This document shows, one piece after another, positions 1 to 64,000 of a DNA stretch of 64,000 nt. Source of the DNA: Janibacter cremeus (GTDB lineage: Bacteria > Actinomycetota > Actinomycetes > Actinomycetales > Dermatophilaceae); the NCBI RefSeq assembly GCF_029395675.1, contig NZ_CP115184.1:248001-312000 (forward strand), given 5' to 3'. A program made the translations under genes and the position numbers. The notes under the pieces were generated by a model that saw nothing but the letters and a program-made list of their open reading frames with translations, was not told where the DNA came from and did no database searches. How positions within the stretch are numbered: the stretch's first letter is position 1; the number at the start of each line of letters is the position of its first letter.

Positions 1-1004
1 TCGGCGGGGACGGGATCGGCCCGGAGGTGGTCGCCGAGGGGCTGAAGGTCCTGGGCGCGTCCGGGGTGACGGTCTCCACCACGGAGTACGACCTGGGCGC
101 CCAGCGCTGGCACCGCACGGGGGAGACCCTGCCGGACTCGGTCGTCGAGGAGATCCGCGGGCACGACGGGATCCTGCTCGGGGCCATCGGCGACCCGACC
201 GTCCCCTCCGGCGTCCTCGAGCGCGGGGTGCTGCTCCCCCTTCGCTTTGCGCTGGACCACTACGTCAACCTGCGCCCGGCCAAGCTCTTCCCGGGCGTGA
301 CCAGCCCGTTGTCGACCGAGGTGACCGACAAGGGACTCGACTTCGTCGTCGTGCGCGAGGGGACCGAGGGCCCGTACGTCGGCAACGGTGGCGCGCTGCG
401 CGTCGGCACCCCGCACGAGGTCGCGACCGAGGTCAGCGTCAACACCCGCTTCGGCATCGAGCGCGTGGTGCGGGACGCCTTCGCCCGCGCGCAGGCCCGC
501 CCGCGCAGGCACCTGACGCTCGTGCACAAGCACAACGTGCTCACCCACGCCGGCCACCTGTGGCGGCGCACGGTCGAGGAGGTCGGCGCGGAGTACCCCG
601 ACGTCGAGACCGCCTACCAGCACGTCGACGCGGCGACGATCTTCATGGCCACCGACCCGGCCCGCTTCGACGTCATCGTCACCGACAACCTCTTCGGCGA
701 CATCATCACCGACATCGCGGCCGCGATCGCCGGTGGCATCGGCCTGGCCGCCAGCGGCAACATCAACCCCTCCCGCGAGGCGCCGAGCATGTTCGAGCCG
801 GTCCACGGCTCCGCCCCGGACATCGCCGGGCAGGGCAAGGCCGACCCGACGGCGGCGATCCTCTCCGCGGCGATGCTGCTGGAGCACCTCGGTCGTCCCG
901 AGGACGCGCGGCGCGTCGAGGCCGCGGTCGCCGCGGACCTCGCCGAGCGGACCGGCGAGCGGTCCACCTCCGCGATCGGTGACGCCGTCGCTGCCCGTTT
1001 GTGA
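1..1004 (+). CDS. leuB: 3-isopropylmalate dehydrogenase, 5' end outside the window
   Basis: This enzyme oxidatively decarboxylates 3-isopropylmalate to 2-oxoisocaproate in leucine synthesis, using NAD+ in the cytoplasm. The frame is already open at base 3 and encodes [17 protein letters not shown], the family's nucleotide-binding N-terminal motif, so the true start lies just upstream of the window and the GTG at 27 is internal. The isocitrate/isopropylmalate dehydrogenase signature is clear near the C-terminal third ([18 protein letters not shown], then [20 protein letters not shown]). The gene is followed after 60 bp by ilvE, and leuC and leuD lie 16 kb further on. The family assignment is secure; only the N-terminal few residues are missing. 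Confidence 0.95.
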
Positions 1005-1064
1005 TGCGGTGCACAGGGAGGACTACCCTGCGAGGACCCGAACACCTGAGGAGTCGAGTCACCG

Positions 1065-2165
1065 ATGACCGCTGAGCTCACCTTCGCAACCACCCGCCGC
1101 GAGGACCCCCTGCCTGCTGCCGAGCGCGAGACGATCCTCGCCAACCCGGCCTTCGGCACCACCTTCACCGACCACATGGTCACCGCCACCTGGACGAAGG
1201 CGAAGGGCTGGCACGACGGTCAGGTCCGCCCCTTCGGGCCGCTCTCCATCTCGCCCGCCGCGGCCGTCCTGCACTACGCGCAGGAGGTCTTCGAGGGCAT
1301 GAAGGCCTACCGCCACGCGGACGGGTCCGTGTGGACCTTCCGGCCGGACCGCAATGCCGCCCGGATGGCCCGCAGCTGCGAGCGGCTCGCGCTGCCGGTG
1401 CTCTCCGAGGAGGACTTCATCGGCGCGATCCGCGCGCTCGTGGAGACCGACAAGGCGTGGGTGCCCGACTCCGGCACCGGTGAGTCCAGCCTCTACCTGC
1501 GCCCCTTCATGTTCGCCTCGGAGGCCTTCATCGGCGTCCGCCCGGCCAACGAGGTGACCTTCTCCGTCATCGCCAGCCCCGCCGGCGCGTACTTCCCCGG
1601 CGGCATGAAGCCGGTCCACCTCTGGCTCACGACGGACTACGCGCGCGCTGGCGAGGGCGGCACGGGTGCTGCCAAGTGCGGCGGCAACTACGCCTCGTCC
1701 CTGGCCGGTCAGCTGGAGGGCGCCGCGCACGGGTGCGACCAGGTGGTCTTCCTCGACTCCTCGACGCACACCTACATCGAGGAGCTCGGCGGGATGAACC
1801 TCTTCTTCGTCACCAGGGACGGCCGCCTGCGCACCCCCGAGCTCACCGGCTCGATCCTCGAGGGCGTCACCCGCGCCTCCATCCTGGAGATCGCGCCCCA
1901 CCTGGGGCTGCAGCCGGAGGAGGCCCGCATCGGCATCGACGAGTGGAAGGACGGCGTCGCATCCGGTGAGATCACCGAGATCTTCGCGTGCGGCACCGCC
2001 GCCGTCGTCACACCCGTCGGCGAGCTGCGCTGGGAGGGCGGGTCCGTCGCGTCCACCGCCGGCGCCGAAGGGGGAGAGGTCACCCGATCCATCCGCCAGG
2101 CCCTGCTGGACATCCAGTACGGCGTCGCCGAGGACACCCGCGGTTGGATGACCCGACTGGCCTGA
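1065..2165 (+). CDS. ilvE: branched-chain amino acid aminotransferase
   Basis: A 366-residue PLP-dependent class IV aminotransferase that interconverts leucine, isoleucine and valine with their 2-oxo acids. The PLP lysine is probably K204 in GAAKCGGNYASSL, and the class IV signature EELGGMNLFFV follows at about residues 234-244. Length is normal for type II (long) BCATs. The ATG at 1065 is preceded by a GAGGAG-like ribosome site 10-15 bases upstream. In the 60-bp gap after leuB, TACCCT at 1024-1029 could be a -10 element, so it may have its own promoter. It is the last common step for the products of leuB and cimA nearby, and the next gene overlaps its 3' end. Confidence 0.95.
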   Translation: MTAELTFATTRREDPLPAAERETILANPAFGTTFTDHMVTATWTKAKGWHDGQVRPFGPLSISPAAAVLHYAQEVFEGMKAYRHADGSVWTFRPDRNAARMARSCERLALPVLSEEDFIGAIRALVETDKAWVPDSGTGESSLYLRPFMFASEAFIGVRPANEVTFSVIASPAGAYFPGGMKPVHLWLTTDYARAGEGGTGAAKCGGNYASSLAGQLEGAAHGCDQVVFLDSSTHTYIEELGGMNLFFVTRDGRLRTPELTGSILEGVTRASILEIAPHLGLQPEEARIGIDEWKDGVASGEITEIFACGTAAVVTPVGELRWEGGSVASTAGAEGGEVTRSIRQALLDIQYGVAEDTRGWMTRLA

Positions 2166-2974
2166 GGCGCGGCACCCCGCGCCTGATCGCGACCGACCTC
2201 GACGGCACGCTGCTGCGCTCGGACGGGACCGTCTCCGGGCGGTCCGTCGCCGCCCTGCGCGGTGTCGCCGAGGTCGGTCTCGAGACGGTGCTCGTCACGG
2301 CCCGCCCACCGCGGTGGCTCGACGAGCTCGCGCACGTCGTCGGCGCCCGGGGCGTGGCGATCTGCGGCAACGGCGCCTTCCGTTACGACGTCGCGCGCCA
2401 GCGGGTCTTCCGCGAGCGGACGATGGCCCGGGACGTCGTCACCGAGATCGTGCGCGACCTGCGCGAGCAGGTGCCCGGTACCGGCTTCGCCGCGGAGCGC
2501 TCGACCGGGCTGGCTGCGGAGAGCATGTTCGCCGCGATCCACGACCATCCCGAGGACCTCGTGACGACCTCGGAGATCGAGCTGCTCCGGGACGCGGCGG
2601 TCGGCAAGCTGCTCGCCCGCAACCCGCACCTGACGGACGAGGAGTTCATCGAGGTCGCGACGCAGGTCGTGGGGGACCGGGCGATCGTCGCCTTCTCCGG
2701 GGCCGGCGGGCTCGCGGAGATCTCCGCGCTCGGCGTCACCAAGGCCGCGGCGCTGCGCGAGTGGAGCGACGAGCTCGGGATCGCGTCCGAAGAGGTGTGG
2801 GCCTTCGGGGACATGCCCAACGACCTGCCGATGCTGCAGTGGGCCGGGCGCTCCTTCGCCGTGGCCAATGCCCACCCGGACGTGCTGACTGCGGTCACCG
2901 ACCACTGCCCGGGCAACGACGAGGACGGTGTGGCCCGGACCCTCGAGATGCTCCTCGACGGTCTCGGTCCGTGA
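2144..2974 (+). CDS. HAD-superfamily phosphatase, Cof type
   Basis: About 276 residues with all four HAD motifs: nucleophile DLDGTLL near the N-terminus, VLVTARP (motif II), a lysine in VTKAAAL (motif III) and GDMPNDLPML (motif IV). The large cap between motifs II and III puts it in the Cof/IIB group, which dephosphorylates sugar phosphates or flavin-type cofactors; the substrate cannot be read from sequence. There is no ATG or GTG in the right place. TTG at 2144 has GAGGA at 2130-2134 with 9 bases spacing, so I chose it. This start overlaps the last 22 bases of ilvE and implies translational coupling. CTG at 2162 is an alternative. Confidence 0.8.
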   Translation: MDDPTGLRRGTPRLIATDLDGTLLRSDGTVSGRSVAALRGVAEVGLETVLVTARPPRWLDELAHVVGARGVAICGNGAFRYDVARQRVFRERTMARDVVTEIVRDLREQVPGTGFAAERSTGLAAESMFAAIHDHPEDLVTTSEIELLRDAAVGKLLARNPHLTDEEFIEVATQVVGDRAIVAFSGAGGLAEISALGVTKAAALREWSDELGIASEEVWAFGDMPNDLPMLQWAGRSFAVANAHPDVLTAVTDHCPGNDEDGVARTLEMLLDGLGP

Positions 2975-3152: not shown

Positions 3153-3295
3153 GTCGAGGAGCAGCCACCCGGCCGGGAGTCGACGAAGCATCGGGTCCCG
3201 AGCATCACCCTCGCGAAGGACCGGCGCGACGAGCAGGTGTCACCCACCGACCTCGGCGAGACGCCCCCTTCGCCACCGTCCGACGGAGAGCACCG

Positions 3296-4879
3296 ATGAC
3301 CACCGGATTCCACGTCTACGACACGACCCTGCGCGATGGTGCCCAGCAGGAGGGCATCAACGTCTCGGTCGCGGACAAGCTGGCGATCAGCCGCCTGCTC
3401 GACGAGCTGGGCGTGACCCACATCGAAGGGGGTTGGCCCGGGGCCAACCCCAACGACACCGAGTTCTTCGCCCGGGCCGGGGACGAGCTGGACCTGCGCA
3501 ACGCCACGCTCGCCGCCTTCGGTGCGACCCGCAGGGCCGGCGTCGACGCCGCATCGGACCCGCAGGTGCAGGCGCTGCTCGACTCCGGCGCCGAGGTGAT
3601 CACCCTCGTGGCCAAGATGCACCCCGGACACGTCGAGCGGGCGCTGCGCACGAGCGTCGCGGAGAACCTCGAGATGATCCGGGACACCGTGGCCCACCTG
3701 CGCTCCCACGGACGCACGGTGATGGTCGACGGCGAGCACTTCTTCGACGGCTACCTCCTCGACCGCGACTACGCCCTGGCGTGCGTCACGGCCGCCCACG
3801 ATGCCGGTGCCGAGGTCGTCGCCGTGTGCGACACCAACGGGGGCATGCTGCCCGACCAGGTGCGCTCCGCGGTCGCCGACGTCATCGCGGTCACCGGAGC
3901 GCGTCTGGGCATCCACTGCCACAACGACACCGGGTGCGCGGTCGCCAACTCGATGGCCGCGGTCGAGGCGGGTGCCGACCACGTGCAGGGGACGATCAAC
4001 GCCTACGGCGAGCGCACCGGCAACGCCGACCTGATCACCGTCGTCGCCAACCTCCAGCTCAAGCTCGGCATGGACCTCGTCGAGCCGCACCGGCTGCAGG
4101 ACGCGACCCGCATCGCCCATGCGGTGAGCGAGGTGACGAACTTCCCGCCCTTCTCCCGTCAGCCGTACGTCGGCTCGGGGGCCTTCGCGCACAAGGCCGG
4201 TCTGCACGCGAGCGCGATCAAGGTCGACCCGGACCTCTACCAGCACATCGACCCCAAGTCGGTCGGCAACGACATGCGCATGCTCGTCTCGGACATGGCC
4301 GGCCGCGCGACCGTGGAGCTGAAGAGCCGCGAGTTCGGCGTCGACCTCGCCGGCGACGACGCGGCCCTGTCCCGCGTGCTGGCCAAGGTCAAGCAGCTGG
4401 AGCGGCAGGGGTACACCTTCGACGCGGCGGACGCGTCCTTCGAGCTGCTGCTGCGTCGCGAGCTCGACGAGGACGCACCCGAGTACGCCCGGGTCGAGTC
4501 CTGGCGGGTGATGATCGACGCCCGCGGTGGGGAGGACGCCCTGTCCGAGGCGACCGTCAAGGCCGTCGCGGGCGGGCAGCGCATCGTCGCGACGGGGGAG
4601 GGGAACGGGCCCGTCAACGCCCTCGACCACGGCCTGCGCCAGGCGCTCACGGTGGTCTACCCGGAGATCGAGGGGCTGGAGCTCATCGACTACAAGGTGC
4701 GCATCCTCGATGCCGCGCACGGCACCGACGCCACCACCCGCGTGCTCATCGAGACGAGCGACGCGCACACGTCGTGGACCACCGTGGGCGTCGCCGGCAA
4801 CATCGTCGAGGCCTCGTGGGAGGCCCTTCTCGACGGTGTCACCTACGGGCTGATGCGCGCGGGCGTGCCCGCCCGCTGA
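3296..4879 (+). CDS. cimA: (R)-citramalate synthase
   Basis: A 527-residue member of the isopropylmalate/homocitrate synthase family. It condenses pyruvate with acetyl-CoA to citramalate, giving 2-oxobutyrate for isoleucine without threonine. The N-terminus carries the family motif DTTLRDGAQQEGI (residues 9-21) and the TIM-barrel metal-site sequences (GIHCHNDTGCAVANS). A C-terminal LeuA-type allosteric domain is present from about residue 390. The sequence resembles the CimA branch (TVMVDGEHFFDGY, GANPNDTEFF) rather than LeuA. ATG at 3296 follows GGAGAG. It lies behind a 320-bp leader with a likely attenuator and downstream of leuB and ilvE, consistent with end-product control. It could be misnamed 2-isopropylmalate synthase in other annotations. 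Confidence 0.9.
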   Translation: MTTGFHVYDTTLRDGAQQEGINVSVADKLAISRLLDELGVTHIEGGWPGANPNDTEFFARAGDELDLRNATLAAFGATRRAGVDAASDPQVQALLDSGAEVITLVAKMHPGHVERALRTSVAENLEMIRDTVAHLRSHGRTVMVDGEHFFDGYLLDRDYALACVTAAHDAGAEVVAVCDTNGGMLPDQVRSAVADVIAVTGARLGIHCHNDTGCAVANSMAAVEAGADHVQGTINAYGERTGNADLITVVANLQLKLGMDLVEPHRLQDATRIAHAVSEVTNFPPFSRQPYVGSGAFAHKAGLHASAIKVDPDLYQHIDPKSVGNDMRMLVSDMAGRATVELKSREFGVDLAGDDAALSRVLAKVKQLERQGYTFDAADASFELLLRRELDEDAPEYARVESWRVMIDARGGEDALSEATVKAVAGGQRIVATGEGNGPVNALDHGLRQALTVVYPEIEGLELIDYKVRILDAAHGTDATTRVLIETSDAHTSWTTVGVAGNIVEASWEALLDGVTYGLMRAGVPAR

Positions 4880-4978: not shown

Positions 4979-5677
4979 ATGACCTACGACACCCTTCTTT
5001 CCGAAGCCCTCGTCGAGGCGTCCCGCGAGATCAACGCCCCCCAGGACCTCGAGGGCACCCTGGACGGCATCGTGGCCGCCGCCGCCCGGTCCCTCCCGAA
5101 CATCGACCACGTCGGCATCTCGATCGTCCACCGAAGGGGGGACATCGAGACCAAGGCCGGCACCGACCAGCTGGTGTGGGAGCTCGACGCGTTGCAGTAC
5201 TCCCTGGGTGAGGGGCCGTGCGTCCAGGCCGTCGAGTCCCAGCCGATCACCATCGCCAACCGGCTGCGGCACGAGACGCGGTGGCCCAAGTTCGTGCCAC
5301 GCGCCGTGGCCATGGGGGTGCAGGCACAGATGGGCGTGCGGCTGTACGTCGAGCGGGAGACGCTCGGCGTGCTCAACCTCTACGCCACCGAGAGCGACAC
5401 GATCGATGCCGACGTGGCCCACACCGCGGAGCTGTTCGCCGCCCACGCCGCCATCGCCCTGGGACGCGCCCGCCGTGAGGAGCAGCTCAGCGAGGCGATC
5501 GCCACCCGCAAGGCGATCGGTCAGGCGATCGGGCTGGTGATGGAGCGGTACCGGATCGACGAGGACCGTGCCTTCCAGTTCCTCGTCCGGGTCTCCACCA
5601 CGAGCAACATCAAAGTCCGGGACCTCGCCGAGGAGCTCATCGATACCGCCAACGAGAACTACCGGCCCGGATCGTAG
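4979..5677 (+). CDS. GAF and ANTAR domain regulator
   Basis: A 232-residue soluble protein with an N-terminal GAF sensor domain (about residues 20-160) and a C-terminal ANTAR domain (about 165-225, with REEQLSEAIATRKAIGQAIGLVMERYRI). ANTAR proteins bind paired RNA hairpins in nascent transcripts and cause antitermination. The GAF domain probably senses a small ligand or redox state, which cannot be named. ATG at 4979 is preceded by GGAGGA with good spacing, and TACGCT at 4928-4933 could be its -10 element. It is a single gene closed by a strong palindrome. Codons for residues near 5132 include the rare CGA AGG GGG, part of the repeated 9-mer. Targets are unknown. Confidence 0.85.
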   Translation: MTYDTLLSEALVEASREINAPQDLEGTLDGIVAAAARSLPNIDHVGISIVHRRGDIETKAGTDQLVWELDALQYSLGEGPCVQAVESQPITIANRLRHETRWPKFVPRAVAMGVQAQMGVRLYVERETLGVLNLYATESDTIDADVAHTAELFAAHAAIALGRARREEQLSEAIATRKAIGQAIGLVMERYRIDEDRAFQFLVRVSTTSNIKVRDLAEELIDTANENYRPGS

Positions 5678-5733: not shown

Positions 5734-8700
5734 TCAGGACGTCGCGACGTGCCCGAAGCGGTGGCGCGTGGTGCTCACCGCCTGCTCGCGCAGGAAGGGC
5801 AGCAGCTCACGGCGACCGGTCGCGAGGACCGGGCCGGTGATGACGTCCACCCCTGCGGCGACGAGCCCGTCGACGAGTGCGGGGGCATCCGTCCCGACGA
5901 GGCGCACCCGGGCGTGCTCGACCTGTCCGGCGCGGGCCAGGAAGGCCGCCTCGTCCTCGGCCTCGACCTGGACGTGGCCGAGGCTCCCGGGGAGCTTCAG
6001 CGCCGGGTCTGCCGAGACGAGCACACCCGCACCGGTGAGGGTGGCGGCGGCGACGAGGCGCACCACCTCGGCGACGGTGGTGCCGGCCCCGGCGCGCACG
6101 AGCACGTTCGGGTGCGGGCGGTAGCGGAAGACATTGGTCTCCACGACGAGCGCGCTCTTGTCGTGCTCGACACCGAGCTCGAGCGCCCACGCGGCGGCGT
6201 CGCTGGCGATCGCCGCCTCGAGCCACGGGCGGTCCGCCTCGGGCACCGTCGAGCCGAGTGCTGCCAGCTGTGCGTCGACGGTGCGACGCACCGCGGAGGA
6301 GGGGGTGGTCCCGTGGGTCGGGAGCCCGTCGGCACGCCACGTGCCCAGCTGGGCCACGTAGTTCGGCCCACCGGCCTTGGCGCCCGGCCCGATCGAGGAG
6401 GACTTCCACCCGCCGAAGGACTGGCGCTGGACGATCGCGCCGGTGATGTGCCGGTTGACGTAACCGTTGCCGACCTCGACGGCATCGGTCCAGTACCGGA
6501 TCTCGGACTCGTCGAGGCTGTGCAGGCCACCGGTGAGGCCGAAGTCGGTGGCGTTCTGCAGCTCGATCGCCTGCTCCAGCGAGTCGGCCCGCATCAGGCC
6601 GAGGACCGGGCCGAAGACCTCGGTGAGGTGGAAGAAGGAACCGGGCGCCACCCCTTCCTTGACTCCCGGCGACCACAGCCGACCGGTGTCGTCGAGCTGC
6701 CGGGGCTCGACCAGCCAGCTCTCACCGGGCTCGAGGGTGGTCAGCGCGCGCAGCAGCTTGTCGCTCGGCGGCTCGATGACCGGCCCCATCCGGGTGCCCA
6801 GGTCGCTGGGCCAGCCCACGGCGATCGAGGTGACCGCGTCGACGAGCTGGCGGCGGAAACGTGGCGACGTGGCGATCGACCCGACGAGGATGCCGAGCGA
6901 GGCGGCCGAGCACTTCTGGCCCGCGTGCCCGAAGGCCGAGGAGACGAGGTCGGCGACGGCGAGGTCGATGTCGGCCGAGGGCGTGACGACGAGGGCGTTC
7001 TTGCCCGAGGTCTCACCGAGCACCCGGGCGCCCTCCTCGCGTCCGGCGCGCCACCCGGCGAAGAGCCGGGCCGTCTCGCTCGCCCCGGTGAGCACGACCG
7101 CGTCGACGTCCTCGTGGGAGACGAGCCGCTGGCCGACCTCGTTCTCCTCGGTGCGCACCACCTGCAGCACGTCGGTCGGGACACCGGCGGCGTGCAGCGC
7201 GGCGACGGCCTCCTCGACGCACCCGGGCGTCTGCGGCGCCGGCTTGATGATCACGGCGGACCCGGCCGCGAGCGAGGCGAGGACACCACCGATCGGGATG
7301 GCGACCGGGAAGTTCCACGGCGGGGTGATCAGCGTCAAGGCGAAGGGGGTGAACCGCGCCCCGTCGGTCATCGGCCCGTCCTCGAGCTCGAGGGCCCGGT
7401 CGGCGTAGTAGCGCGCGAAGTCGACGGCCTCGGAGACCTCGGGGTCGGACTCGGCGACGGTCTTGCCGGCCTCGGCGGCCATGACCGACACGAGGGCCTC
7501 CCGGCGGGCGTTGAGCTCGCGGGCGGCGTCACGCAGGATCGCGGCGCGCTCCTGCGCGGGACGCGCGGCCCAGCCCTCGTGCGCCGCACGCCCGGTGGCG
7601 ACGACCTCCTCGACGTCGGCGACGACGTCCAGGTGGCGCGAGGTCAGCTCGGGCATCGGCTGGGCGACCGCTCGGGCGGCCCACTCGCGGTGCTCGGCCA
7701 GGGCCGGGTCGGCGTCGGGGGTGTTGGCGAAGGTATCGCCGATCGGCGCGGGCTCGACGAGGCGGCGCGGGCCGGTCGGGGTCGCCCCGATGGCCTCGAC
7801 GCTCGCGCGGAAACGGGTCTCCTGATCGGGCATCGCGGCGGAGTCGTCCGAGAAGAACGCGTGCAGGTAGTTCTCCGGGGAGGCGTTCTCCTCGAGGCGG
7901 CGCACGAGGTAGGAGACCGCGGAGTCGAAGTCCTCCGGTGCGACGACCGGGGTGTAGAGGATGACCGTGCCCACGTCGTCGCGGACCGCGCGGGCCTGCG
8001 CCGGCGACATCCCCTGCAGCATCTCGATGTCGAGGGCGTCCTCGACGCCTCGGGACTGGGCGAGCAGGTGCGCGCTCGCGACGTCGTAGAGGTTGTGCGA
8101 GGCGACCCCGATGCGCACCCCGGCCGCGACGCTGTCAGCACGCAGCGCGCGCTCGACGCAGCGCAGGTAGTTCGCGTCGACGTCACCCTTGGTGGGGTAG
8201 GGGGCCTGCTCCCAGTCGTGCATGACGGCCTCGACCTTCTCCATGGCGAGGTTGGCGCCCTTGACCAGACGGATCTTCACACCCGCGCGGCCCTGGGCCC
8301 GGCGCTCGGCGGCGAAGGCGATGAGGCGCTCCATCGCGGGGAGCGCGTCGGGCAGGTAGGCCTGCAGGACGATGCCGGCCTCGAGGTCGTGGAAGTCCGG
8401 CTCGGAGAGGATCGCCATGAACAGCTCGAGCGTCATCTCGAGGTCGCGGTACTCCTCCATGTCGAGGTTGACGAAGGCGTGGGGGGTGGACGCCTTCGCC
8501 GCGGCGTACAGGGGGCGCAGCCGCTCGACGCAGCGCTCGACTGTGCCGGGGGTGTCCCACACGCTGATCTGGCTGACGAGTGAGGAGGCCTTGATCGAGA
8601 CGTAGTCGACGTCGCCGCGCTCGAGCAGCTCGCGGGTGCGCCGGGTGCGGGAGGCGGCCTCGTCCTCGCCGAGGACGGCCTCGCCCAAGAGGTTGATGTT

Positions 8701-9177
8701 CAGGCGGAACCCGTCCTCACGGGCGGCAGCGAGGTGCCGACCGAGCTTCGGGTCGTTGGCGTCGACGAGCAGGTGGCCGACCATCTGCTTCATCCGCGCA
8801 CGGGCGGCGGGGACGACGACCTTCGGCGCGATCCGGGCGACCGTCGCGCCGAGGCCGAGCAGACCGCGGTCGATCGGGCCGAGGAAGGAGGTGGCGTCCG
8901 CGGCGGTGATCTGGCTCAGGGCGTTGGCCGCGGCCTTGTCGTCCTCGGGGCGGGCGACGCGGTCGACGAAGAAGACGGCCAGGTCCAGGCCGCCACCGGC
9001 GTCGGAGAGCAGCGCGGCCAGCTGGCCGGTCGTCTGCGCCTCGCGCTTGGTCTGCCCGGCGTGGGCGGCAGCGGCCCAGCGCTCGGCGAGGGCGACGGCG
9101 TCCTCGACGAAGGGGGTCAGGGCTGCGGTGGCCGGGTGGGCGCCGGAGGCGGTTGCGGTCTCGGATGCCGTGGTCAT
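5734..9177 (-). CDS. putA: bifunctional proline dehydrogenase / glutamate-semialdehyde dehydrogenase
   Basis: About 1147 residues. The N-terminal half is a FAD-dependent proline dehydrogenase (TIM barrel, roughly residues 60-470). The next part is an NAD+-dependent aldehyde dehydrogenase (roughly 510-990) with LGETSGKNALVV and the catalytic cysteine near C756 in GQKCSAASLG. A C-terminal ALDH-like tail follows. Together they oxidise proline to glutamate. The ribbon-helix-helix DNA-binding segment of enterobacterial PutA is absent, so control probably rests with the divergent PucR-type gene. The ATG at 9177 has GGAGG directly abutting it, too close to act as a normal ribosome site. GTG at 9213 or TTG at 9219 are alternatives, or the mRNA may be leaderless. 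Confidence 0.92.
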   Translation of the reverse strand: MTTASETATASGAHPATAALTPFVEDAVALAERWAAAAHAGQTKREAQTTGQLAALLSDAGGGLDLAVFFVDRVARPEDDKAAANALSQITAADATSFLGPIDRGLLGLGATVARIAPKVVVPAARARMKQMVGHLLVDANDPKLGRHLAAAREDGFRLNINLLGEAVLGEDEAASRTRRTRELLERGDVDYVSIKASSLVSQISVWDTPGTVERCVERLRPLYAAAKASTPHAFVNLDMEEYRDLEMTLELFMAILSEPDFHDLEAGIVLQAYLPDALPAMERLIAFAAERRAQGRAGVKIRLVKGANLAMEKVEAVMHDWEQAPYPTKGDVDANYLRCVERALRADSVAAGVRIGVASHNLYDVASAHLLAQSRGVEDALDIEMLQGMSPAQARAVRDDVGTVILYTPVVAPEDFDSAVSYLVRRLEENASPENYLHAFFSDDSAAMPDQETRFRASVEAIGATPTGPRRLVEPAPIGDTFANTPDADPALAEHREWAARAVAQPMPELTSRHLDVVADVEEVVATGRAAHEGWAARPAQERAAILRDAARELNARREALVSVMAAEAGKTVAESDPEVSEAVDFARYYADRALELEDGPMTDGARFTPFALTLITPPWNFPVAIPIGGVLASLAAGSAVIIKPAPQTPGCVEEAVAALHAAGVPTDVLQVVRTEENEVGQRLVSHEDVDAVVLTGASETARLFAGWRAGREEGARVLGETSGKNALVVTPSADIDLAVADLVSSAFGHAGQKCSAASLGILVGSIATSPRFRRQLVDAVTSIAVGWPSDLGTRMGPVIEPPSDKLLRALTTLEPGESWLVEPRQLDDTGRLWSPGVKEGVAPGSFFHLTEVFGPVLGLMRADSLEQAIELQNATDFGLTGGLHSLDESEIRYWTDAVEVGNGYVNRHITGAIVQRQSFGGWKSSSIGPGAKAGGPNYVAQLGTWRADGLPTHGTTPSSAVRRTVDAQLAALGSTVPEADRPWLEAAIASDAAAWALELGVEHDKSALVVETNVFRYRPHPNVLVRAGAGTTVAEVVRLVAAATLTGAGVLVSADPALKLPGSLGHVQVEAEDEAAFLARAGQVEHARVRLVGTDAPALVDGLVAAGVDVITGPVLATGRRELLPFLREQAVSTTRHRFGHVATS

Positions 9178-12109: not shown

Positions 12110-13029
12110 GGGTCCAGAGTGGCAGCGGCCGGTGACGGTCGGGACCCGACGCGCTCCGTGAGGTCCTCGAGGACGTCGAGGAGGCGGCGGCGCAGGGCGT
12201 TGGAGCGCGCGGTGAACCCGCGCTGCCGCTCCACGTACTCGGCCTTGCCCGCCGACGTCTCGATCGCCACCGGCGCGATGCCGACGTCGGACAGGTCGTA
12301 CGGCGAGGCGGCCATGTCCAGCTCGCGGATCTCCCGGGCCAGCTCGAAGGCCGCGAGCGTCAGCCCGGACGGGACCGCGGGGGCGAGCTTGAAGCACCAC
12401 TTGTACAGGTCCATCCCCGCGTGCAGGCAGCCCGGCTGCTCGAAGGCCACCTGGTCCTCGCGGGTGGGGCGAAGGGAGTTGCGCCCCACCGCGTCCGGGG
12501 TGAAGAAGCGGTAGGCGTCGAAGTGACTGCACCTGATCCGGTTGTCCTCGACGACGGCATCCGTCTCGTCCTGCGACAGGCGGAGCGGGAGCTGCTCGTG
12601 GCGCTGCTCGCCCGGGGCGAGCCGGTAGACCATCGCCCACTCGTGCAGCCCGAAGCAGTCGTGCGCCGCCGGGCGCGACAGCGTCGCGCCGAGCAGGCCG
12701 TGCACGAAGCCGACGGTGCGCCCCCTTCGCTCCATGACGGAGTCGATGTCCAGGCGCGCGGTGCCCTCTGCGTCCACGACGTACCCGGGACGCTCGCCGT
12801 ACACGTCCGCTGCGTCGGCCAGGGCCGTGCCCGCACCGGGGTGCCACCGCCGCAGGTGCGTGGGGCGGTGGCGGTAGTACTCGAAGAGGAAGTCCTCGAC
12901 CGGGTGGCGCTCGCCGCGCTGCCGACGCTCCCGGTGGCCGGCGGTCAGGCGGTCGACGCCTGCCGCGTGCTCCTCGGCCAGCGTGAGCCACTGCGCCCGC
13001 GGAAGCGTCCTCTTGACCGGCGTGCCCAC
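12106..13029 (-). CDS. conserved actinobacterial protein of unknown function, often labelled 3-methyladenine DNA glycosylase
   Basis: About 307 residues, soluble, with conserved-looking stretches HPVEDFLFEYYRHRPTHLRRW, DCFGLHEWAMVYR, RCSHFDAYRFFTPDA and QPGCLHAGMDLYKWCFKL. I recall relatives being named 3-methyladenine DNA glycosylase in actinobacterial genomes. I see no helix-hairpin-helix or other glycosylase motif, so that name should be treated as unproven. The histidine, aspartate and cysteine content suggests a metal-binding or hydrolytic fold. Start GTG at 13029; the end is coupled to the DUF1353 gene through a 4-base overlap, so both are probably one operon. Confidence 0.7.
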   Translation of the reverse strand: MGTPVKRTLPRAQWLTLAEEHAAGVDRLTAGHRERRQRGERHPVEDFLFEYYRHRPTHLRRWHPGAGTALADAADVYGERPGYVVDAEGTARLDIDSVMERRGRTVGFVHGLLGATLSRPAAHDCFGLHEWAMVYRLAPGEQRHEQLPLRLSQDETDAVVEDNRIRCSHFDAYRFFTPDAVGRNSLRPTREDQVAFEQPGCLHAGMDLYKWCFKLAPAVPSGLTLAAFELAREIRELDMAASPYDLSDVGIAPVAIETSAGKAEYVERQRGFTARSNALRRRLLDVLEDLTERVGSRPSPAAATLDP

Positions 13030-50879: not shown

Positions 50880-50918
50880 GGGACGAAGGGGGTCGCGCGG
50901 GAAGATAGCCTAGGTCGG

Positions 50919-52544: not shown

Positions 52545-53347
52545 TGGGCGAGCCGGCGCTGCACACGGTCAGCTCGGGGGAGTCGGGGCCCCGGGTCGCC
52601 TTCTGCCACGGACTGCTGGGCCAGGGGCGCAACTGGAACCAGATCGCCAAGGGTCTCGCCGACATCAGTCGACCCACCCTGGTCGACATGCCCGACCACG
52701 GGCACTCCCCGTGGTCGGAGCGCATCGACTACTTCGACGCGGCCGCGGTGCTCGCCGACACCCTGCGGGCCATCGATCCCGAGGAGCCCTGGACGGTCGT
52801 CGGGCACTCGATGGGCGGCAAGACCGCCATGGTGCTGGCGCTGACCGAGCCGGAGCTCGTCGAGCGGCTCGCGGTCGTGGACATCTCGCCGGCGCCCACC
52901 GCCTCGTTCACCCAGTTCGAGACCTTCCTCGCCGGGATGCGCGGGGTGGACCTCGACGCGGTGAGCAGCCGCGCGGACGCCGACGAGGCGATGCGGGAGG
53001 CGGCCCCCGACCCGGCGATCCGCGGATTCCTCCTGCAGAACCTCCGGCGTGACGGCGACGGGTGGCGCTGGCTGCCCAACCTGGCGCTGCTCGAGCGCGA
53101 CATCGCCGCCATCGGCGGGTGGCCGGAGGAGCGCATCGCCGAGCTTCCCCCCTTCGACGGGCCGGTGCTGTGGCTCTCCGGCGCGAACTCCCCGTACGTC
53201 TCGCAGGAGAACGACGCCGAGATGCGGCGGCTCTTCCCCCGGGTGCGCCAGGTGACGGTCAAGGAGGCCGGCCACTGGGTCCACTCCGAGCAGCCGGAGG
53301 TGACCACGGCGGCCCTGCGCGCGCTGATCACCGGCGAGCGCGGCTGA
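52544..53347 (+). CDS. alpha/beta-fold hydrolase
   Basis: A 267-residue serine hydrolase. The nucleophile elbow is VVGHSMGGKTAMVLA (Ser near residue 88). The oxyanion region is FCHGLLGQGRNWNQI, an acid is near WLSGANSPYVSQENDAE, and the catalytic His is in EAGHWVHSEQPE. It resembles YbfF-type esterases, but the substrate is unknown. GTG at 52544 shares a base with the ffh stop, so it is coupled to ffh. Confidence 0.85.
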   Translation: MGEPALHTVSSGESGPRVAFCHGLLGQGRNWNQIAKGLADISRPTLVDMPDHGHSPWSERIDYFDAAAVLADTLRAIDPEEPWTVVGHSMGGKTAMVLALTEPELVERLAVVDISPAPTASFTQFETFLAGMRGVDLDAVSSRADADEAMREAAPDPAIRGFLLQNLRRDGDGWRWLPNLALLERDIAAIGGWPEERIAELPPFDGPVLWLSGANSPYVSQENDAEMRRLFPRVRQVTVKEAGHWVHSEQPEVTTAALRALITGERG

Positions 53348-55712: not shown

Positions 55713-55752
55713 TGACGAAAGGGGCGGGAGCGACGGCTCCCACCCCCTTCGT
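55713..55752. terminator. bidirectional terminator between Rrf2 and PhoX-like genes
   Basis: Arms 55713-55730 (beginning GACGAAAGGGG) and 55735-55752 (ending CCCCCTTCGTC) make an 18-bp stem with two mismatches and a 4-nt loop. One arm holds an exact copy of the repeated 9-mer, the other a one-base variant. It lies between convergent genes. Confidence 0.7.
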
Positions 55753-55763: not shown

Positions 55764-57125
55764 TCAGAGGGCGCCCTTGCGCCACGGACCCGTGATCGCG
55801 AACGTGATGCCCGGGCTCTGCGCGTTGGCGAAGAGCCAGTTGCCGTTCTTCGGCTCGAAGGTCGACCCGCACCACTCCGACCCGGTGTAGGTGCCGGCGG
55901 CGACGGTGCTGCCGGCGATGCCGCTCTCGGGCAGCACGACGGTGTTCTGGGCGAAGGGGAAGATCTCGCCCGTGGCGGTCAGGCCGTGGAGGAACTCGCT
56001 GCCGCTGCCGTCCTCGCACAGCACGATGCCGCCGCGCGGGGAGACGCAGATGTTGTCGGGGTTGTTCAGCGTCGCGGCGTCGGGCGAGGCGATGAGCACG
56101 GTCATCGTCTCCGTCCGCGGGTCGTACTCGAAGACCTGGCCCTGACCGGCCGGGCCGCCGCTCGTGGACACGATGTACGCGCGGTCGTTGCCCCACCACG
56201 CGCCCTCGAGGCGGGCGAACTGGGCACCCCCCTTCGCGATGCCCTGCTGCACGACGCTCGTCTCGCCCGCTCCGGGGTCGGGCTGGTCGATCGTCACCCA
56301 CGTCAGGTTGCGGTAGGTCGTGCCGGTACCGGCACCGTAGGTCTGGTGGGACGTGCTGCCGATGGCGAGCATCTGCAGCTCGCCACCGTCGGCGAGGCGC
56401 CCCGGCGTCCTGGGGACGTAGCGGTAGAGGCCCGACGGGGTCGCGTCCTCGGTGAGGTAGGTGATGCCGGTCGAGGGGTCGGTGCACGTGGCCTCGTGGA
56501 CGAAGCGACCCATCTGTCGGATCGGCTCGGCGTTGCTCTTGCCCGTGGGCGGCACCTCGAAGACGTAACCGTGGCGGGTGCCGTCGGCAGAGATGTGCGT
56601 CGTCTCCTCGCAGGAGAGCCAGGTGCCCCACGGGGTCGGCCCGCCGGCGCAGTTGCGCACGGTGCCCGAGAGGGAGGCGTAGGACTCGAGGAACTGTCCC
56701 GCGTCCGGGTCGAAGACGACCGTCGTCGTGCCGCCGGCGCCCTCGCGGGCGTCGTAGGCCGTGCTGTCGTAAGCGGGGCCCGTGCCGTTCTCGTGGTTGC
56801 GCACCAGGCGGACGAGGTCGCCGTCGCGGAAGGCGGCCATGCCGTCGTGCATGGCGGGGGTGCGCAGGCCGTCGGACATCATCGAGCCGGTCCAGCCGTA
56901 GGTGAGGTACTCGAAGCCCTTCGGGAGCGAGATGAGCTCGAGCCCGGTGGTCTGGTCCTTCACCGGGTGGAGCGGGCCGTAGTCGGGGCCGAAGGGGCGG
57001 CGGCTCATCGGGGCGGCCCCGGCGGTGCGGGCGCCGAGTGCTCCCAGCGGGCCGAGTGCGGCGAGGGAGGCGGCGCCCTGGATGAGGGTACGGCGCTGGA
57101 CGAAGGGGGACTGCTCGGTGGTCAT
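55764..57125 (-). CDS. Tat-exported PhoX-like (DUF839) protein
   Basis: A 453-residue protein with an N-terminal twin-arginine signal (VQRRTLIQGAASLAALG), so it is exported folded. The rest is a DUF839/PhoX-type beta-propeller with LSCEETTHISADGT, ICVSPRGGIVLCEDGSG and C-terminal NGNWLFANAQSPGITFAI. PhoX enzymes are calcium- and iron-dependent phosphatases. This one is shorter than classical PhoX, so phosphatase activity is likely but not certain. ATG at 57125 has AGGAGAG upstream on the minus strand. Confidence 0.82.
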   Translation of the reverse strand: MTTEQSPFVQRRTLIQGAASLAALGPLGALGARTAGAAPMSRRPFGPDYGPLHPVKDQTTGLELISLPKGFEYLTYGWTGSMMSDGLRTPAMHDGMAAFRDGDLVRLVRNHENGTGPAYDSTAYDAREGAGGTTTVVFDPDAGQFLESYASLSGTVRNCAGGPTPWGTWLSCEETTHISADGTRHGYVFEVPPTGKSNAEPIRQMGRFVHEATCTDPSTGITYLTEDATPSGLYRYVPRTPGRLADGGELQMLAIGSTSHQTYGAGTGTTYRNLTWVTIDQPDPGAGETSVVQQGIAKGGAQFARLEGAWWGNDRAYIVSTSGGPAGQGQVFEYDPRTETMTVLIASPDAATLNNPDNICVSPRGGIVLCEDGSGSEFLHGLTATGEIFPFAQNTVVLPESGIAGSTVAAGTYTGSEWCGSTFEPKNGNWLFANAQSPGITFAITGPWRKGAL

Positions 57126-58241: not shown

Positions 58242-58790
58242 ATGGATGCTTCCGAGGGTCACGTCGTCGCCCGCATCGGCAAACCCCACGCCCTGCGCGG
58301 TGAGGTGACGGTCCAGCTGCACACGGACGACCCCGAGTCCCGTTTCGTGCCCGGGGTCGTCTTCGACACCCGCGCGGAGGCCGGATCGGGCGTCCCGCGC
58401 CAGCTGACCCTGGCGACGAGCCGGGTCCACCGGGGCATCTGGCTGCTGGGCTTCGAGGGGATCCCCGACCGCACCGGCGCGGAGTCGCTGCGCGGCACCC
58501 GCCTGCTCCTGGCCGACCCGGAGGCGATGGACGAGGCGGACGACGAGGGCTGGTACGAGGAGGACCTCGTCGGCCTGACGGCGCGCACCCCCGCCGGGGA
58601 GGTCATCGGCGAGGTGACCGCGCTCGAGATCGGTGGCGCGCAGGACCGCCTCGTGCTGCGCCGACCCGATGGCGAGGAGGCGCTCGTCCCCTTCGTCGAG
58701 GCGATCGTCACCGAGGTGGACCCGTCGGTCGGCCGGCTCGTCGTCGACCCGCCACCCGGCCTGCTCGACCTCGACGCGAAGGGGGAGTGA
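58242..58790 (+). CDS. rimM: ribosome maturation factor RimM
   Basis: A 182-residue 30S assembly factor that binds S19. The N-terminal RimM domain has VVARIGKPHALRGEVTVQLHTDDP, and the C-terminal PRC-barrel has WYEEDLVGLTARTPAGEVIGEV. ATG at 58242 lies 7 bases after TATCTT (58229-58234), so the mRNA is probably leaderless. A copy of CGAAGGGGG forms the last codons (GCG AAG GGG GAG TGA). trmD starts 3 bp after the stop. Confidence 0.95.
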   Translation: MDASEGHVVARIGKPHALRGEVTVQLHTDDPESRFVPGVVFDTRAEAGSGVPRQLTLATSRVHRGIWLLGFEGIPDRTGAESLRGTRLLLADPEAMDEADDEGWYEEDLVGLTARTPAGEVIGEVTALEIGGAQDRLVLRRPDGEEALVPFVEAIVTEVDPSVGRLVVDPPPGLLDLDAKGE

Positions 58791-58793
58791 GCC

Positions 58794-59993
58794 GTGCGCA
58801 TCGACGCCATCTCGATCTTCCCGGACTACCTGGCGCCCCTGGACCTCTCGCTCATCGGGAAGGCGCGTCGCGAGCAGATCCTCGACGTGCGGGTGCACGA
58901 CCTGCGCGACTTCACCCACGACCGCCACCGGACGGTGGACGACACGCCGTACGGGGGCGGGGCGGGGATGGTGATGAAGCCCCAGCCGTGGAGCGAGGCC
59001 CTCACCCACGTCCTGGACTCCGCCGACGAGGCGACGGGCCCGGCCCCCCTTCTCATCGTGCCCGGCCCCGGTGGCGAGCGCTTCACCCAGGCGATGGCGC
59101 ACGAGCTCGCCGCGGCCCCCTGGCTGGCCTTCGCGTGCGGCCGCTACGAGGGGATCGACGAGCGCACCTACGAGTGGGCCGCCGAACGCATGGAGGTCCG
59201 GGTCGTCTCCCTGGGTGACTACGTGCTCAACGGCGGCGAGGTCGCGGTGCTCGCGATGGTCGAGGCGATCGGACGCCTCCTGCCGGGGGTCGTCGGCAAC
59301 GCGGAGTCGCTCGTCGAGGAGTCGCACGAAGGGGGGCTGCTCGAGTACCCGATCTACACCAAGCCCGCGGTGTGGGACGGCGGCGACGGCGTCGAGCGCA
59401 CCGTGCCGGCCGTGCTGCTCGGCGGCAACCATGCCGCCATCTCCCGGTGGCGCCATGAGCAGCGCCTCGCGCGCACGGCAGCCCGACGCCCCGACCTGCT
59501 GCACACGGCGGCGACGACGGCGGACCTCGCCGACCTGGAGCACGCCGTCGCCTCACCTGCGGACGCCCCCGAGCTGGCCGTGCTGCAGAAGGCCTGCTGG
59601 ATCGAGCTGGTCGCCCAGCCGCAGCACTGGTGGGGCGCGCCGGCCGAGGACGCGGGCACGGTCGCCGAGAACCTCGGGCAGTGGACGACGCACCTCTTCC
59701 GCTCCGAGGGCCGCCTGGTCATGTCCGTGCGCGTGCGACGCGACCCGCACCAGCCGACGACCTGGCAGATCGGTCGGATCATGGTCGCGCCGGACCTGCA
59801 GCGGCAGGGACTCGGACGCGCGCTGCTCGCCCATGCCGAGGCGCTGGCTCCCGCCGACATCACGACGTTCTGGCTCAACACCGGCGCCGACCAGCCGCGC
59901 CTGCTGAAGATCTGCAAGAAGGCCGGGTACCGCGTCGTCGGCCCCGGGGTCGGGCCGGGCACCGTCGACCTCGTCCGTCGTGCCGACCGCTGA
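58794..59993 (+). CDS. trmD: tRNA (guanine37-N1)-methyltransferase TrmD fused to a GNAT acetyltransferase
   Basis: A 399-residue protein; ordinary TrmD is about 240-250. Residues 1-240 are a complete SPOUT methyltransferase: [29 protein letters not shown], the knot [15 protein letters not shown], and [16 protein letters not shown]. From about residue 250 there is a GNAT fold with [24 protein letters not shown] (acetyl-CoA loop RQGLGRA) and [14 protein letters not shown]. No stop or frameshift separates them. The role of the second domain is unknown. GTG at 58794 is 3 bp after rimM. Confidence 0.92.
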
Positions 59994-63313: not shown

Positions 63314-63417
63314 ACCGTCCACAAGCTCCTGACGGGTGGCGACCGGATCCACAGCGCCCCCCGGTGACCTCGCGGTCACGCCCCGACCGCCGTTGACTGG
63401 CGGCGGAGGTGGTCGAG

Positions 63418-63789
63418 ATGACCGAGCAAGCATCCGCACGATCCGCTCTCGGGGTGGCCGGCGAGGACATGGCGCAGCAGTACCTCACCGACCGGGGGAT
63501 GGTCCTGCTGGACCGCAACTGGCGCTGCCGAGAGGGCGAGATCGACCTCGTCCTGCGCGACGGCGGCACGGTGGTCGTGTGCGAGGTGAAGACCCGCCGC
63601 ACGACGACCTTCGGCGAGCCGATCCAGGCGATCACCCGGGCGAAGCTGGCCCGGCTGCGTCGCCTCGCCGGCTGCTGGCTCGCCGACCACCCGGTGCCCG
63701 CGCGCGGCGTGCGCCTGGACGTCGTCGCCCTGCTGCAGCACCCCGACGGCAGCTTCTCGGTCGACCACCGTCCCGGGGTGGGGCAGTGA
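63418..63789 (+). CDS. yraN: UPF0102 family (YraN) nuclease-like protein
   Basis: A 123-residue protein with the restriction-endonuclease-like core motif REGEIDLVLRDGGTVVVCEVK (Glu, Asp, ExK) and LGVAGEDMAQQYLTDRGM at the N-terminus. A Holliday-junction or DNA nuclease role is suspected from the fold but not established. ATG at 63418 has GGAGG (63405-63409) 8 bases upstream, better than GTG at 63409. The stop overlaps comM (GTGA). Confidence 0.9.
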   Translation: MTEQASARSALGVAGEDMAQQYLTDRGMVLLDRNWRCREGEIDLVLRDGGTVVVCEVKTRRTTTFGEPIQAITRAKLARLRRLAGCWLADHPVPARGVRLDVVALLQHPDGSFSVDHRPGVGQ

Positions 63790-64000
63790 GCATCGGGGTC
63801 ACCCGCGGGGTGGCCCTGCGCGGGATCACCGGCCGGGTCGTGGACGTCGAGTGCCACAGCGGGCAGGGGTTGCCCTCCTTCGAGATCGGTGGGTTGCCGG
63901 ACACCGCGCTGCGCCAGGCACCCCAACGGGTCCGTGCGGCGGCCATCGCCGCCGGGTACTCCCTGAACCAGCGGCAGCTGACGATCAACCTCTCACCGGC
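63786..64000 (+). CDS. comM: YifB/ComM-family Mg-chelatase-like ATPase, 3' end outside the window
   Basis: The first 71 residues are visible: MSIGVTRGVALRGITGRVVD, then HSGQGLPSFEIGGLPDTALRQ and LNQRQLTINLSPA. This is the Lon-like N-terminal domain of YifB/ComM proteins, hexameric helicases that extend branch migration during natural transformation. GTG at 63786 overlaps the yraN stop. In actinobacteria dprA usually follows, outside this window. Confidence 0.9.
   Translation, partial: MSIGVTRGVALRGITGRVVDVECHSGQGLPSFEIGGLPDTALRQAPQRVRAAAIAAGYSLNQRQLTINLSP

Follow-up and report, generated by a model that had tools for sequence, protein, structure and literature searches.

The 64-kb stretch of Janibacter DNA analysed here (the window) contains 36 exact copies of the 9-mer CGAAGGGGG (word A), 18 on each strand, and the word probably acts as a DNA uptake sequence in both Janibacter and its neighbour genus. 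Its over-representation, hairpin pairs and clade restriction, among other features, are, as far as sequence can tell, typical of DNA uptake sequences and of the dialects in which these occur, and the best reading is that such a system would have evolved independently in the Actinobacteria. The total of 36 had been reached by hand count in a first-pass annotation and is correct, as are 35 of its 36 coordinates; the reverse-strand site that it placed at 18230 is really at 18220 (Table 1).

Table 1. Exact copies of word A in the window and the hairpins formed by its inward pairs
Feature	Position	Strand	Remarks
CGAAGGGGG	236..244	-	inside gene 3-1004
CGAAGGGGG	2066..2074	+	inside gene 1065-2165, class IV aminotransferase
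CGAAGGGGG	3264..3272	-	intergenic
CGAAGGGGG	3424..3432	+	inside gene 3296-4879, HMGL-like and LeuA_dimer domains
CGAAGGGGG	5132..5140	+	inside gene 4979-5677
CGAAGGGGG	7341..7349	+	inside gene 5734-9177 (minus strand)
CGAAGGGGG	9108..9116	+	inside gene 5734-9177 (minus strand)
CGAAGGGGG	12721..12729	-	inside gene 12106-13092; exact in 3/3 aligned species
CGAAGGGGG	14316..14324	-	at gene start of uncertain position; exact in 0/3 aligned species
CGAAGGGGG	15253..15261	+	exact in 8/8 aligned Janibacter/Marihabitans
CGAAGGGGG	16365..16373	-	intergenic
CGAAGGGGG	16481..16489	+	hairpin pair, left arm
CGAAGGGGG	16493..16501	-	hairpin pair, right arm
CGAAGGGGG	18220..18228	-	18230 in first-pass annotation; exact in outgroup Phycicoccus too
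CGAAGGGGG	20521..20529	-	intergenic
CGAAGGGGG	23517..23525	-	inside Cys/Met metabolism PLP enzyme gene
CGAAGGGGG	23545..23553	+	inside same gene as 23517 copy, with which it forms an outward pair
CGAAGGGGG	25440..25448	-	close to uncertain gene start
CGAAGGGGG	26485..26493	+	hairpin pair, left arm; 3 bases after stop codon
CGAAGGGGG	26501..26509	-	hairpin pair, right arm
CGAAGGGGG	26823..26831	+	intergenic
CGAAGGGGG	29659..29667	+	
CGAAGGGGG	30868..30876	-	intergenic
CGAAGGGGG	32683..32691	+	intergenic
CGAAGGGGG	36270..36278	+	
CGAAGGGGG	43463..43471	-	
CGAAGGGGG	45024..45032	-	intergenic per second gene caller
CGAAGGGGG	45407..45415	+	
CGAAGGGGG	49517..49525	-	
CGAAGGGGG	50884..50892	+	intergenic
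CGAAGGGGG	53148..53156	-	
CGAAGGGGG	55743..55751	-	intergenic
CGAAGGGGG	56228..56236	-	
CGAAGGGGG	57101..57109	+	
CGAAGGGGG	58777..58785	+	
CGAAGGGGG	59327..59335	+	
Terminator-like hairpin, inward pair	16473..16512		RNA fold -26.9 kcal/mol, z -4.46; without T run
Hairpin, inward pair	26477..26520		RNA fold -29.0 kcal/mol, z -5.01; without T run

Among the 9-mers of the window word A is the most over-represented (36 copies against 2.0 and 2.8 expected under Markov models of order 2 and order 4), and 100 dinucleotide shuffles of the window gave 0.81 ± 0.92 copies with a maximum of 3. The excess is genome-wide and strand-symmetric, as the first-pass annotation had supposed, and is not confined to the window; the 3,495,359 bases of the genome hold 1,587 copies (818 and 769 on the two strands; about 450 per million bases or 0.45 per kb). 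In a 464-kb sample, consisting of the window and 20 other stretches of the genome, all 21 segments carry the word, which is again the top 9-mer with 208 copies against 15.3 expected (order 4). It might be asked whether codon usage, base composition or terminator hairpins could produce such numbers by ordinary means, given that some copies lie in hairpins and that the commonest reading frames of the coding copies are AKG, EGG and xPF. However, shuffling synonymous codons within genes leaves 22.8 ± 4.4 copies (maximum 34 in 100 shuffles) where the sample has 151 in coding DNA, the reversed word (the same letters backwards) occurs only 34 times in the genome (15 + 19), 167 of 186 family genomes have background numbers of word A (≤80 copies each), and inward pairs account for only 24 of the 208 sampled copies. 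The tests thus lend this origin no support, and it is scarcely credible. Neither of the outcomes that the first-pass annotation had named as refuting its claim, a frequency explained by codon use and composition or an excess limited to the window, was obtained.

The 27 one-mismatch forms of word A, when counted against the Markov model as had been proposed, sum to 314 in the 464 kb against 308.6 expected. The greatest excess is that of CGAAGGGAG (43 against 11.2), GGAAGGGGG (21 against 6.0) and CGAAGGGGT (20 against 9.7) are also in excess, and several forms are depleted, for example CGAAGGTGG (9 against 27.3). Molecular drive that is graded with similarity to the uptake word (PMC1939737) should raise such forms, so a sum at expectation counts against the uptake reading. 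The near-exactness of the word, with its limited tolerance for mismatches, speaks for the uptake reading; it is also what might be seen if the word were a chromosome-wide site for a nucleoid, segregation or regulatory protein, as are its presence in every sampled segment and the spacing of its copies, which is a little more even than chance would give (CV 0.89, with copies <60 bases apart merged and segments L088 and L090 excluded). On the other hand, we know of no such protein whose sites combine non-polar copies, inward pairing, absence from low-GC DNA and a change of word in sister genera; the 1,587 non-polar copies and these other features, including a wholly different sister-genus word, make this explanation improbable. 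The extended consensus is G-R-CGAAGGGGG-Y, and conservation in the flanks of 207 copies is slight outside positions -2, -1 and +9; a dispersed mobile repeat of the REP or MITE kind was rejected because the copies have little flanking sequence in common beyond these positions.

Copies lie in both coding and intergenic DNA, as had been noted earlier (23 and 13, respectively, of the 36 in the window, by gene calls made here), and in the sample the intergenic DNA, 12.5% of the 464 kb, carries 57 of the 208 (0.99 per kb against 0.37 in coding DNA, or 2.7-fold more). The leading-strand share is 45%–56% for any half-circle origin/terminus split of the 21 segments, which upholds the earlier argument against a polar motor-guiding sequence. 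Word A is short, G-rich, non-palindromic, abundant and clade-specific, and in these respects resembles Chi-like recombination and KOPS- or AIMS-like segregation signals. These signals are polar relative to replication, whereas the share above never exceeds 56% and the whole-genome strand counts are nearly balanced, so it is very unlikely that the word is one of them.

Pairs of copies that face inward at distances of 2–30 bases number 75 genome-wide against about 5.2 expected (about 14-fold), and all 16 genus genomes examined show such an enrichment (10.8- to 17.8-fold). Judging by predicted folds such as the two in Table 1, the second of which has a 14-pair stem directly 3' of a gene ending at 26481, these pairs could double as terminator hairpins. 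Word A is also unevenly distributed with respect to GC content (4-kb bins of the sample); there are no copies in 32 kb below 64%, 5 in 36 kb at 64–68% and 203 in the 396 kb above, and part of this deficit could be base composition, since the low-GC bins are compositionally odd. In this one genome, and with base composition as a confounder, the genes tested in or beside two of the three stretches with word-free low-GC bins include integrase-core, polysaccharide and defence genes; an integrase-core protein accompanies the polysaccharide genes, and DrmA/DrmB of DISARM accompany a methyl-directed nuclease. These bins are putatively of foreign origin.

Orthologous sites, which the first-pass annotation had suggested comparing, show that coding copies are well kept. 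Among Janibacter and Marihabitans the exact word A is present in 44 of the 57 coding site-species cells that align, against 23.6% for control 9-mers; in outgroups it is found in 1 of 13 cells, against 11.1% of control 9-mers. There is turnover among the intergenic copies, of which 15 out of 52 are retained. Third codon positions are identical at 163 of 186 places within the word and at 680 of 868 in the flanks (p 0.003), but identity is higher inside the word at all three codon positions, so its retention may partly be protein constraint.

A survey of 186 family genomes from 53 genera shows two words. Word A is abundant in 19 genomes (two genera, Janibacter and its neighbour), and 107 genomes, belonging to 30 other genera, are rich in a second word, GTATGCCG (word B); thus 32 of the 53 genera carry one or the other, no genome has both, and 60 genomes have neither at ≥390 copies. 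Neither word is palindromic (each differs from its own reverse complement), and comparison of the two revealed no obvious common core. Three genomes that lack word B but have congeners with it were searched for a replacement word, and none was clear. Inward pairs of word B are above chance in some genera (58 against 12.9 in G032) and show no excess in others (13 against 20.0 in G019, 21 against 18.5 in G026 and 2 against 3.4 in G033). The genomes with neither word, the lack of a common core, the uneven pairing of word B and the turnover of intergenic copies of word A count against the uptake reading.

The main rival to the uptake reading takes word A for a methylation or repair signal akin to HIP1, in which case a methyltransferase or methylation-dependent repair system would recognise it, biased repair would make and keep the copies, and sister genera would have another enzyme and another word. 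Mutually exclusive words and genomes with neither would fit, and, as word A does, HIP1 and the alternate HIPs of cyanobacteria are described as very abundant, clade-dependent and able to replace one another, HIP1 being nearly absent from some cyanobacteria or swapped there for another word, with a matching methyltransferase (PMC4390886). However, the HIPs of that paper are palindromic and denser (1,000–2,000 per million bases against about 450), and the 14-fold enrichment of inward pairs is not obviously predicted, so we regard this rival as rather unlikely. The first-pass annotation had offered a HIP1-like signal, a protein binding site or a repair/recombination signal, a list that was broad and is still partly open; DNA uptake sequences agree better than HIP1 or Chi with a word that is confined to two genera, forms hairpin pairs, is missing from low-GC bins and gives way to a different word in sister genera.

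If word A is an uptake sequence, a DNA receptor at the cell surface, part of the competence apparatus, would bind it in double-stranded DNA, and DNA of the same genus would therefore be taken up preferentially. We infer such binding and a resulting boost to uptake; the receptor, the drive mechanism and the terminator function are all putative. Recombination of imported fragments would spread copies, which would persist where harm is small (synonymous sites, intergenic DNA and paired copies), and DNA of outside origin would lack the word. Since many sister genera use word B, the two words would be dialects that keep gene pools apart. In Neisseria the specific receptor is ComP. Unlike the hosts of the neisserial sequences (DUS), Janibacter has Tad/Flp pilus genes rather than type IVa N-methyl pilins, the one family that we searched as a receptor source; it was found in 1 of 16 genus genomes and not in the other 15, and the search gave no candidate. 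The receptor would perhaps be a Tad/Flp minor pilin or some other factor acting ahead of ComEC. In the window's genome comEA adjoins comEC, and the Tad region encodes two T2SSE ATPases, two RcpC, TadE and Flp. TadE and ComEC are both present in 16 of 16 genus genomes, but ComEC is also in 38 of 39 relatives and TadE in 57 of 58 irrespective of word, so the machinery does not discriminate. A literature search that paired Janibacter with natural transformation returned no report.

The fuller proposal, with a third independent origin of sequence-specific uptake (in Gram-positive bacteria), two exclusive words in 32 of 53 genera, a receptor based on the Tad pilus and a barrier between Janibacter with its neighbour and the rest, has in our judgement slightly less than an even chance of being right. 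Uptake sequences have so far been described for Neisseriaceae and Pasteurellaceae (PMC12616744), and this would be a third case, with two unrelated words within one actinobacterial family. It would offer a way to ask how uptake words begin, how one replaces another and how they separate gene pools; it would also predict that more than a hundred species are naturally competent, would make recently acquired DNA recognisable by the missing word, and would link sequence-specific DNA binding to Tad pili. Should the uptake reading fail, it would still have to be explained why one family carries words that exclude each other and run to hundreds or thousands of copies.

Several known systems bear comparison. 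Transformation of Micrococcus luteus requires comEA, comEC and Tad/Flp pili (PMC4322843, PMC6370729), genes of the kinds present here; unlike our proposal, the main text of PMC4322843 does not use the terms "uptake sequence" or "sequence-specific". The USS of Pasteurellaceae, thought to have evolved independently for the same task as DUS (PMC12616744), is like word A a short, genome-wide word, although the word and the phylum are different. In Neisseriaceae the DUS number 943 to 5,918 copies and have clade-specific dialects, with a common CTG core, and terminator-associated inverted pairs (PMC3630211), and mobile elements stand out by an atypical DUS distribution (PMC7371117). Word A differs from DUS in its actinobacterial host, its unrelated sequence, the lack of a core common to words A and B and its lower density (about 0.45 per kb, where N. 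meningitidis has about 0.85 by our own arithmetic from 1,900 copies in 2.2–2.3 Mb), and, in comparison with both DUS and USS, its role in uptake is putative. Like DUS as described in PMC3630211, it is highly over-represented, has many copies, forms inverted pairs and is clade-specific, with some genomes of the family lacking the word.

The first-pass annotation had described CGAAGGGGG as a strongly over-represented, strand-symmetric word, and a recount verifies all 36 exact copies in the window, 18 on each strand; the only wrong coordinate of the 36 is a reverse-strand site given as 18230, whose true position is 18220. Dinucleotide shuffles give a mean of 0.81 copies and a maximum of 3, and the word ranks first in over-representation among all 9-mers of the window. 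The enrichment is genome-wide, as the annotation had suggested: the single-contig genome (G000; 3,495,359 bases) holds 818 + 769 copies, against only 15 + 19 of the same word read backwards, our control word. A 464-kb sample of this genome (the window and 20 evenly spread 20-kb stretches) contains 208 copies where 15.3 (order 4) or 12.0 (order 3) are expected, so that background composition accounts for only about 15 of the 208. A custom gene caller, whose starts are approximate, places 411 genes in the sample; 151 copies are coding (0.37 per kb), 57 are intergenic (0.99 per kb) and none straddles the two. The word occurs in all six reading contexts (72 sense, 79 antisense), the most frequent of which encode AKG, EGG or xPF. 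After synonymous codons are shuffled within genes, coding sequence has 22.8 +/- 4.4 copies, and the highest of 100 shuffles has 34. Codon usage, composition and terminators alone are not supported as causes by this codon shuffle, by the reversed-word control or by the comparison with relatives described below.

The one-base variants of CGAAGGGGG behave unevenly in the 464 kb of G000: the 27 forms sum to 314 against 308.6 expected (order 3), some being raised and others lowered. The most enriched is CGAAGGGAG (43 vs 11.2); GGAAGGGGG (21 vs 6.0), CGAAGGGGT (20 vs 9.7) and CGAAGAGGG (18 vs 9.5) are also raised, and CGAAGGTGG (9 vs 27.3) and CGAGGGGGG (7 vs 18.2) are lowered. The flanks of 207 copies favor G at -2 (152/207), A or G at -1 (177/207) and T or C at +9 (138/207), and beyond these positions they are poor in information, so CGAAGGGGG is no part of a longer repeat; a mobile repeat is excluded, since the flanks of the copies are unrelated. 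Symmetry with respect to origin and terminus holds as well: 109 copies are forward and 99 reverse in the 21 sampled segments, and every half-circle split implies a leading-strand share between 0.452 and 0.558. Chi and KOPS are polar signals, and both are disfavored by this lack of polarity in the 21 segments.

Inward-facing pairs of CGAAGGGGG, 2–30 bases apart, number 75 in the genome against about 5.2 expected from strand counts, and are enriched 10.8- to 17.8-fold in all 16 Janibacter genomes; these expectations presume even placement and, except for G000 and three other genomes (G001, G009 and G030), rounded genome sizes, and correcting for intergenic clustering lifts the 5.2 to roughly 6. 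Outward pairs number 10 in G000 and 4–26 across the genus. Inward and outward pairs can both fold into hairpins (for a coding outward pair see the table), and the inward preference is therefore one of orientation, not of folding alone. The 464 kb contain 12 inward pairs, 8 of them intergenic by the custom gene calls and 4 of those 8 between convergent genes; 184 of the 208 copies lie outside such pairs. In many of the listed inward pairs the complementarity outlasts the word, with extra sequence that differs among them. Folding energies of the window's two inward pairs are -26.9 kcal/mol (z -4.5) and -29.0 kcal/mol (z -5.0); the second pair begins 3 bases past a stop codon, and no T run follows either.

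The word is missing from the parts of the sample lowest in GC. The 4-kb bins below 64% GC (32 kb) have no copy where the mean rate predicts 14.3 (Poisson 6e-7), a deficit of which base composition could explain a part; bins at 64–68% GC (36 kb) have 5 copies and those above 68% (396 kb) have 203. The eight lowest-GC bins fall in three of the sampled stretches, L088, L089 and L090. Eight genes tested in or beside the low-GC bins of L088 and L090 comprise one with an integrase core, three genes of polysaccharide synthesis and four of restriction/helicase/DrmB type, and six genes of L090 compared with PADLOC models include those for DrmA, DrmB, a methyl-directed nuclease and a cytosine methyltransferase. 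In Neisseriaceae, mobile elements are marked by a deviating distribution of DNA uptake sequences (DUS), according to an excerpt of PMC7371117; the absence of CGAAGGGGG from possibly acquired DNA is only suggestive.

Among 58 relatives CGAAGGGGG is abundant in 16/16 Janibacter genomes, and the 42 others have at most 72 copies. Of 186 genomes of the family (53 genera), 19 carry 797–1,939 copies, namely the 16 of Janibacter and all three of a second genus (g64), and the remaining 167 do not exceed 80. In Marihabitans asiaticum, 21 kb contain 8 copies. An even sample of 394 genomes from the whole class contains only two outliers, from Janibacter and g64, the next highest count being 231 in 9.2 Mb, alongside 139 of the control word. 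There is variation within g64, where GCGAAGGGG beats CGAAGGGGG in genome G120 (62 vs 2.6 and 47 vs 2.4, respectively) and not in G122.

Other genera of the family carry a second, unrelated abundant word, GTATGCCG. k-mer counts in 40–60 kb of each of seven sister genera found it enriched in three (genomes G022, G019 and G018; table); in G022 essentially GTATGCCG alone is enriched, and in G019 and G018 GTATGNCG. No comparable word was found in sister genera G016, G017, G024, G025 and G029 or in the 20 kb of G021, and G023 has only a weak ATCGCCTTC (9 vs 0.6). Whole-genome counts of GTATGCCG range from 394 to 4,724 in 107 of the 186 genomes of the family (30 genera), and none of the 19 carriers of CGAAGGGGG has more than 41 copies; not one of the 186 carries both words. 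Neither reaches 390 copies, a threshold chosen after the counts were seen, in 60 genomes of 26 genera, 13 of them intermediate (153–361). Three genomes (G065, G139 and G114) lack GTATGCCG though their congeners carry it, and show no clear replacement word. Inward GTATGCCG pairs exceed chance in G032 (58 vs 12.9), G022 (74 vs 38.5), G018 (19 vs 10.0) and G027 (5 vs 2.1) and do not in G019, G026 and G033, so the pairing hallmark is uneven for this word; in G030, a single repeated element accounts for most of the 33 pairs. A HIP-like cause, by analogy with the HIP1-like words of cyanobacteria and tied to methyltransferases, likewise predicts that one word replaces another, but HIPs are palindromes roughly two to four times as dense as CGAAGGGGG (PMC4390886, excerpt), and such a cause seems to us unlikely.

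Several other repeated sequences are listed in the table. Of these, CGGATGCC and CGGATGCCG may represent a related word belonging to another family and genus.

Coordinates of features in the window and in sampled stretches (L numbers) of G000 and its relatives (other G numbers); counts are observed vs expected where two are given
Location	Sequence	Feature	Count or value
Window, 14316 and 25440	CGAAGGGGG	sites that may be intergenic, because gene starts are approximate	
Window, 23517/23545	CGAAGGGGG	outward pair, coding	-27.4 kcal/mol
L090 (G000), 4354-18210		DrmA/DrmB (DISARM-like) defense genes, AspBHI-like methyl-directed nuclease, cytosine methyltransferase	no CGAAGGGGG
L156-L157 (G022)	GTATGCCG	second word	52 vs 2.4 in 40 kb
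L147-L149 (G019)	GTATGCCG	second word	45 vs 2.8 in 60 kb
L144-L146 (G018)	GTATGCCG	second word	40 vs 5.8 in 60 kb
L210-L211 (G030)	GTATGCCGCTG (start)	largely uniform palindromic repeat, source of most inward GTATGCCG pairs there	
L230-L232 (G055)	CGGATGCC	over-represented word	47 vs 7.7 in 60 kb
L212-L213 (G031)	CGGATGCCG	over-represented word	13 vs 1.0 in 40 kb
L216-L217 (G035)	CGCTGGTACAC-type 9-/10-mers	dispersed repeat or another word	10-11 vs 0.07-0.4 in 40 kb
L168-L177 (G009)	ACCCTAGGGT	palindromic element, often with GCAAG/CTTGC at flanks	22 in 200 kb
L158-L167 (G001)	AACTGCCCGG	repeated element	29 in 200 kb
L156-L157 (G022)	TCTGCTAGCAGA	dispersed palindrome	8 in 40 kb
L144-L146 (G018)	GAGTGGCACG	repeat	15 in 60 kb
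L218-L220 (G036)	ATCATGCAATCCC	repeat containing this sequence	nine in 60 kb
L256, L264, L265 (G064)	GAAGCACTCCCGCGG	repeat units, possibly a CRISPR array	about 56-58 in 60 kb

Most copies of CGAAGGGGG are retained at orthologous coding sites within Janibacter and Marihabitans. The window is assigned to Janibacter by its 372-aa Cys/Met metabolism PLP enzyme, which has 81–84% amino-acid identity to those of eight Janibacter loci, 76% to that of M. asiaticum and 64–66% to those of other Dermatophilaceae/Intrasporangiaceae. For the window's aligned sites, the exact word is present in 44 of 57 coding site-species cells (the eight Janibacter loci and Marihabitans), against 23.6% identity of control coding 9-mers that are unmatched for composition or protein constraint, and in the four outgroup loci it is present in 1 of 13 cells against 11.1% for control 9-mers. 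Intergenic sites were retained in 15 of 52 cases. In a second alignment set, drawn from more loci and restricted to sites whose flanks align in full, so that its counts differ from those of the first, third codon positions are identical in 163/186 cases inside the word and 680/868 in the flanks (Fisher p 0.003). First and second positions rise too (179/186 and 177/186 inside, 744/868 and 736/868 in the flanks), so protein constraint contributes to retention. Where the orthologous word is lost, CGAAGGGAG is its most frequent form (5 cells, second set).

Machinery that could take up DNA is present. In G000 comEA (SLBB and helix-hairpin-helix domains) adjoins comEC, and a Tad region encodes two T2SSE ATPases, two ParA-like ATPases (which would be TadZ in our labeling), two RcpC, two TadE/G-like proteins, TadE and Flp. 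According to PMC4322843 and PMC6370729 (excerpts), comEA, comEC and Tad/Flp pili serve natural transformation in another actinobacterium, Micrococcus luteus. ComEC and TadE are each found in 16/16 Janibacter genomes, and N-methyl pilins in 1/16. Both proteins are nearly universal among the relatives examined, which makes their distribution neutral, neither for nor against uptake. Relatives that carry neither word share these genes, so the presence of the machinery only allows for uptake.

CGAAGGGGG displays the DUS hallmarks that could be examined in sequence, except that its absence from possibly acquired DNA is suggestive and that a gradual lift of one-mismatch forms is visible for some forms only. 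Because of these hallmarks, and because HIPs are palindromic and denser, we lean, with modest confidence, towards CGAAGGGGG being a receptor-bound DNA uptake word; the one-mismatch result and the rise in identity at all codon positions speak against it. The open-access literature, the only literature searched, yielded nothing on natural transformation in Janibacter, no uptake word in this family in titles and the opening lines of abstracts of the papers listed, and only unrelated matches, among those listed, to the letters of the word. For Haemophilus influenzae, PMC7811141 describes the sequencing of DNA that cells have taken up. The DUS of the Neisseriaceae number 943 to 5,918 copies, have clade-specific dialects with some genera lacking them, and form terminator-associated inverted pairs (PMC3630211, excerpt).
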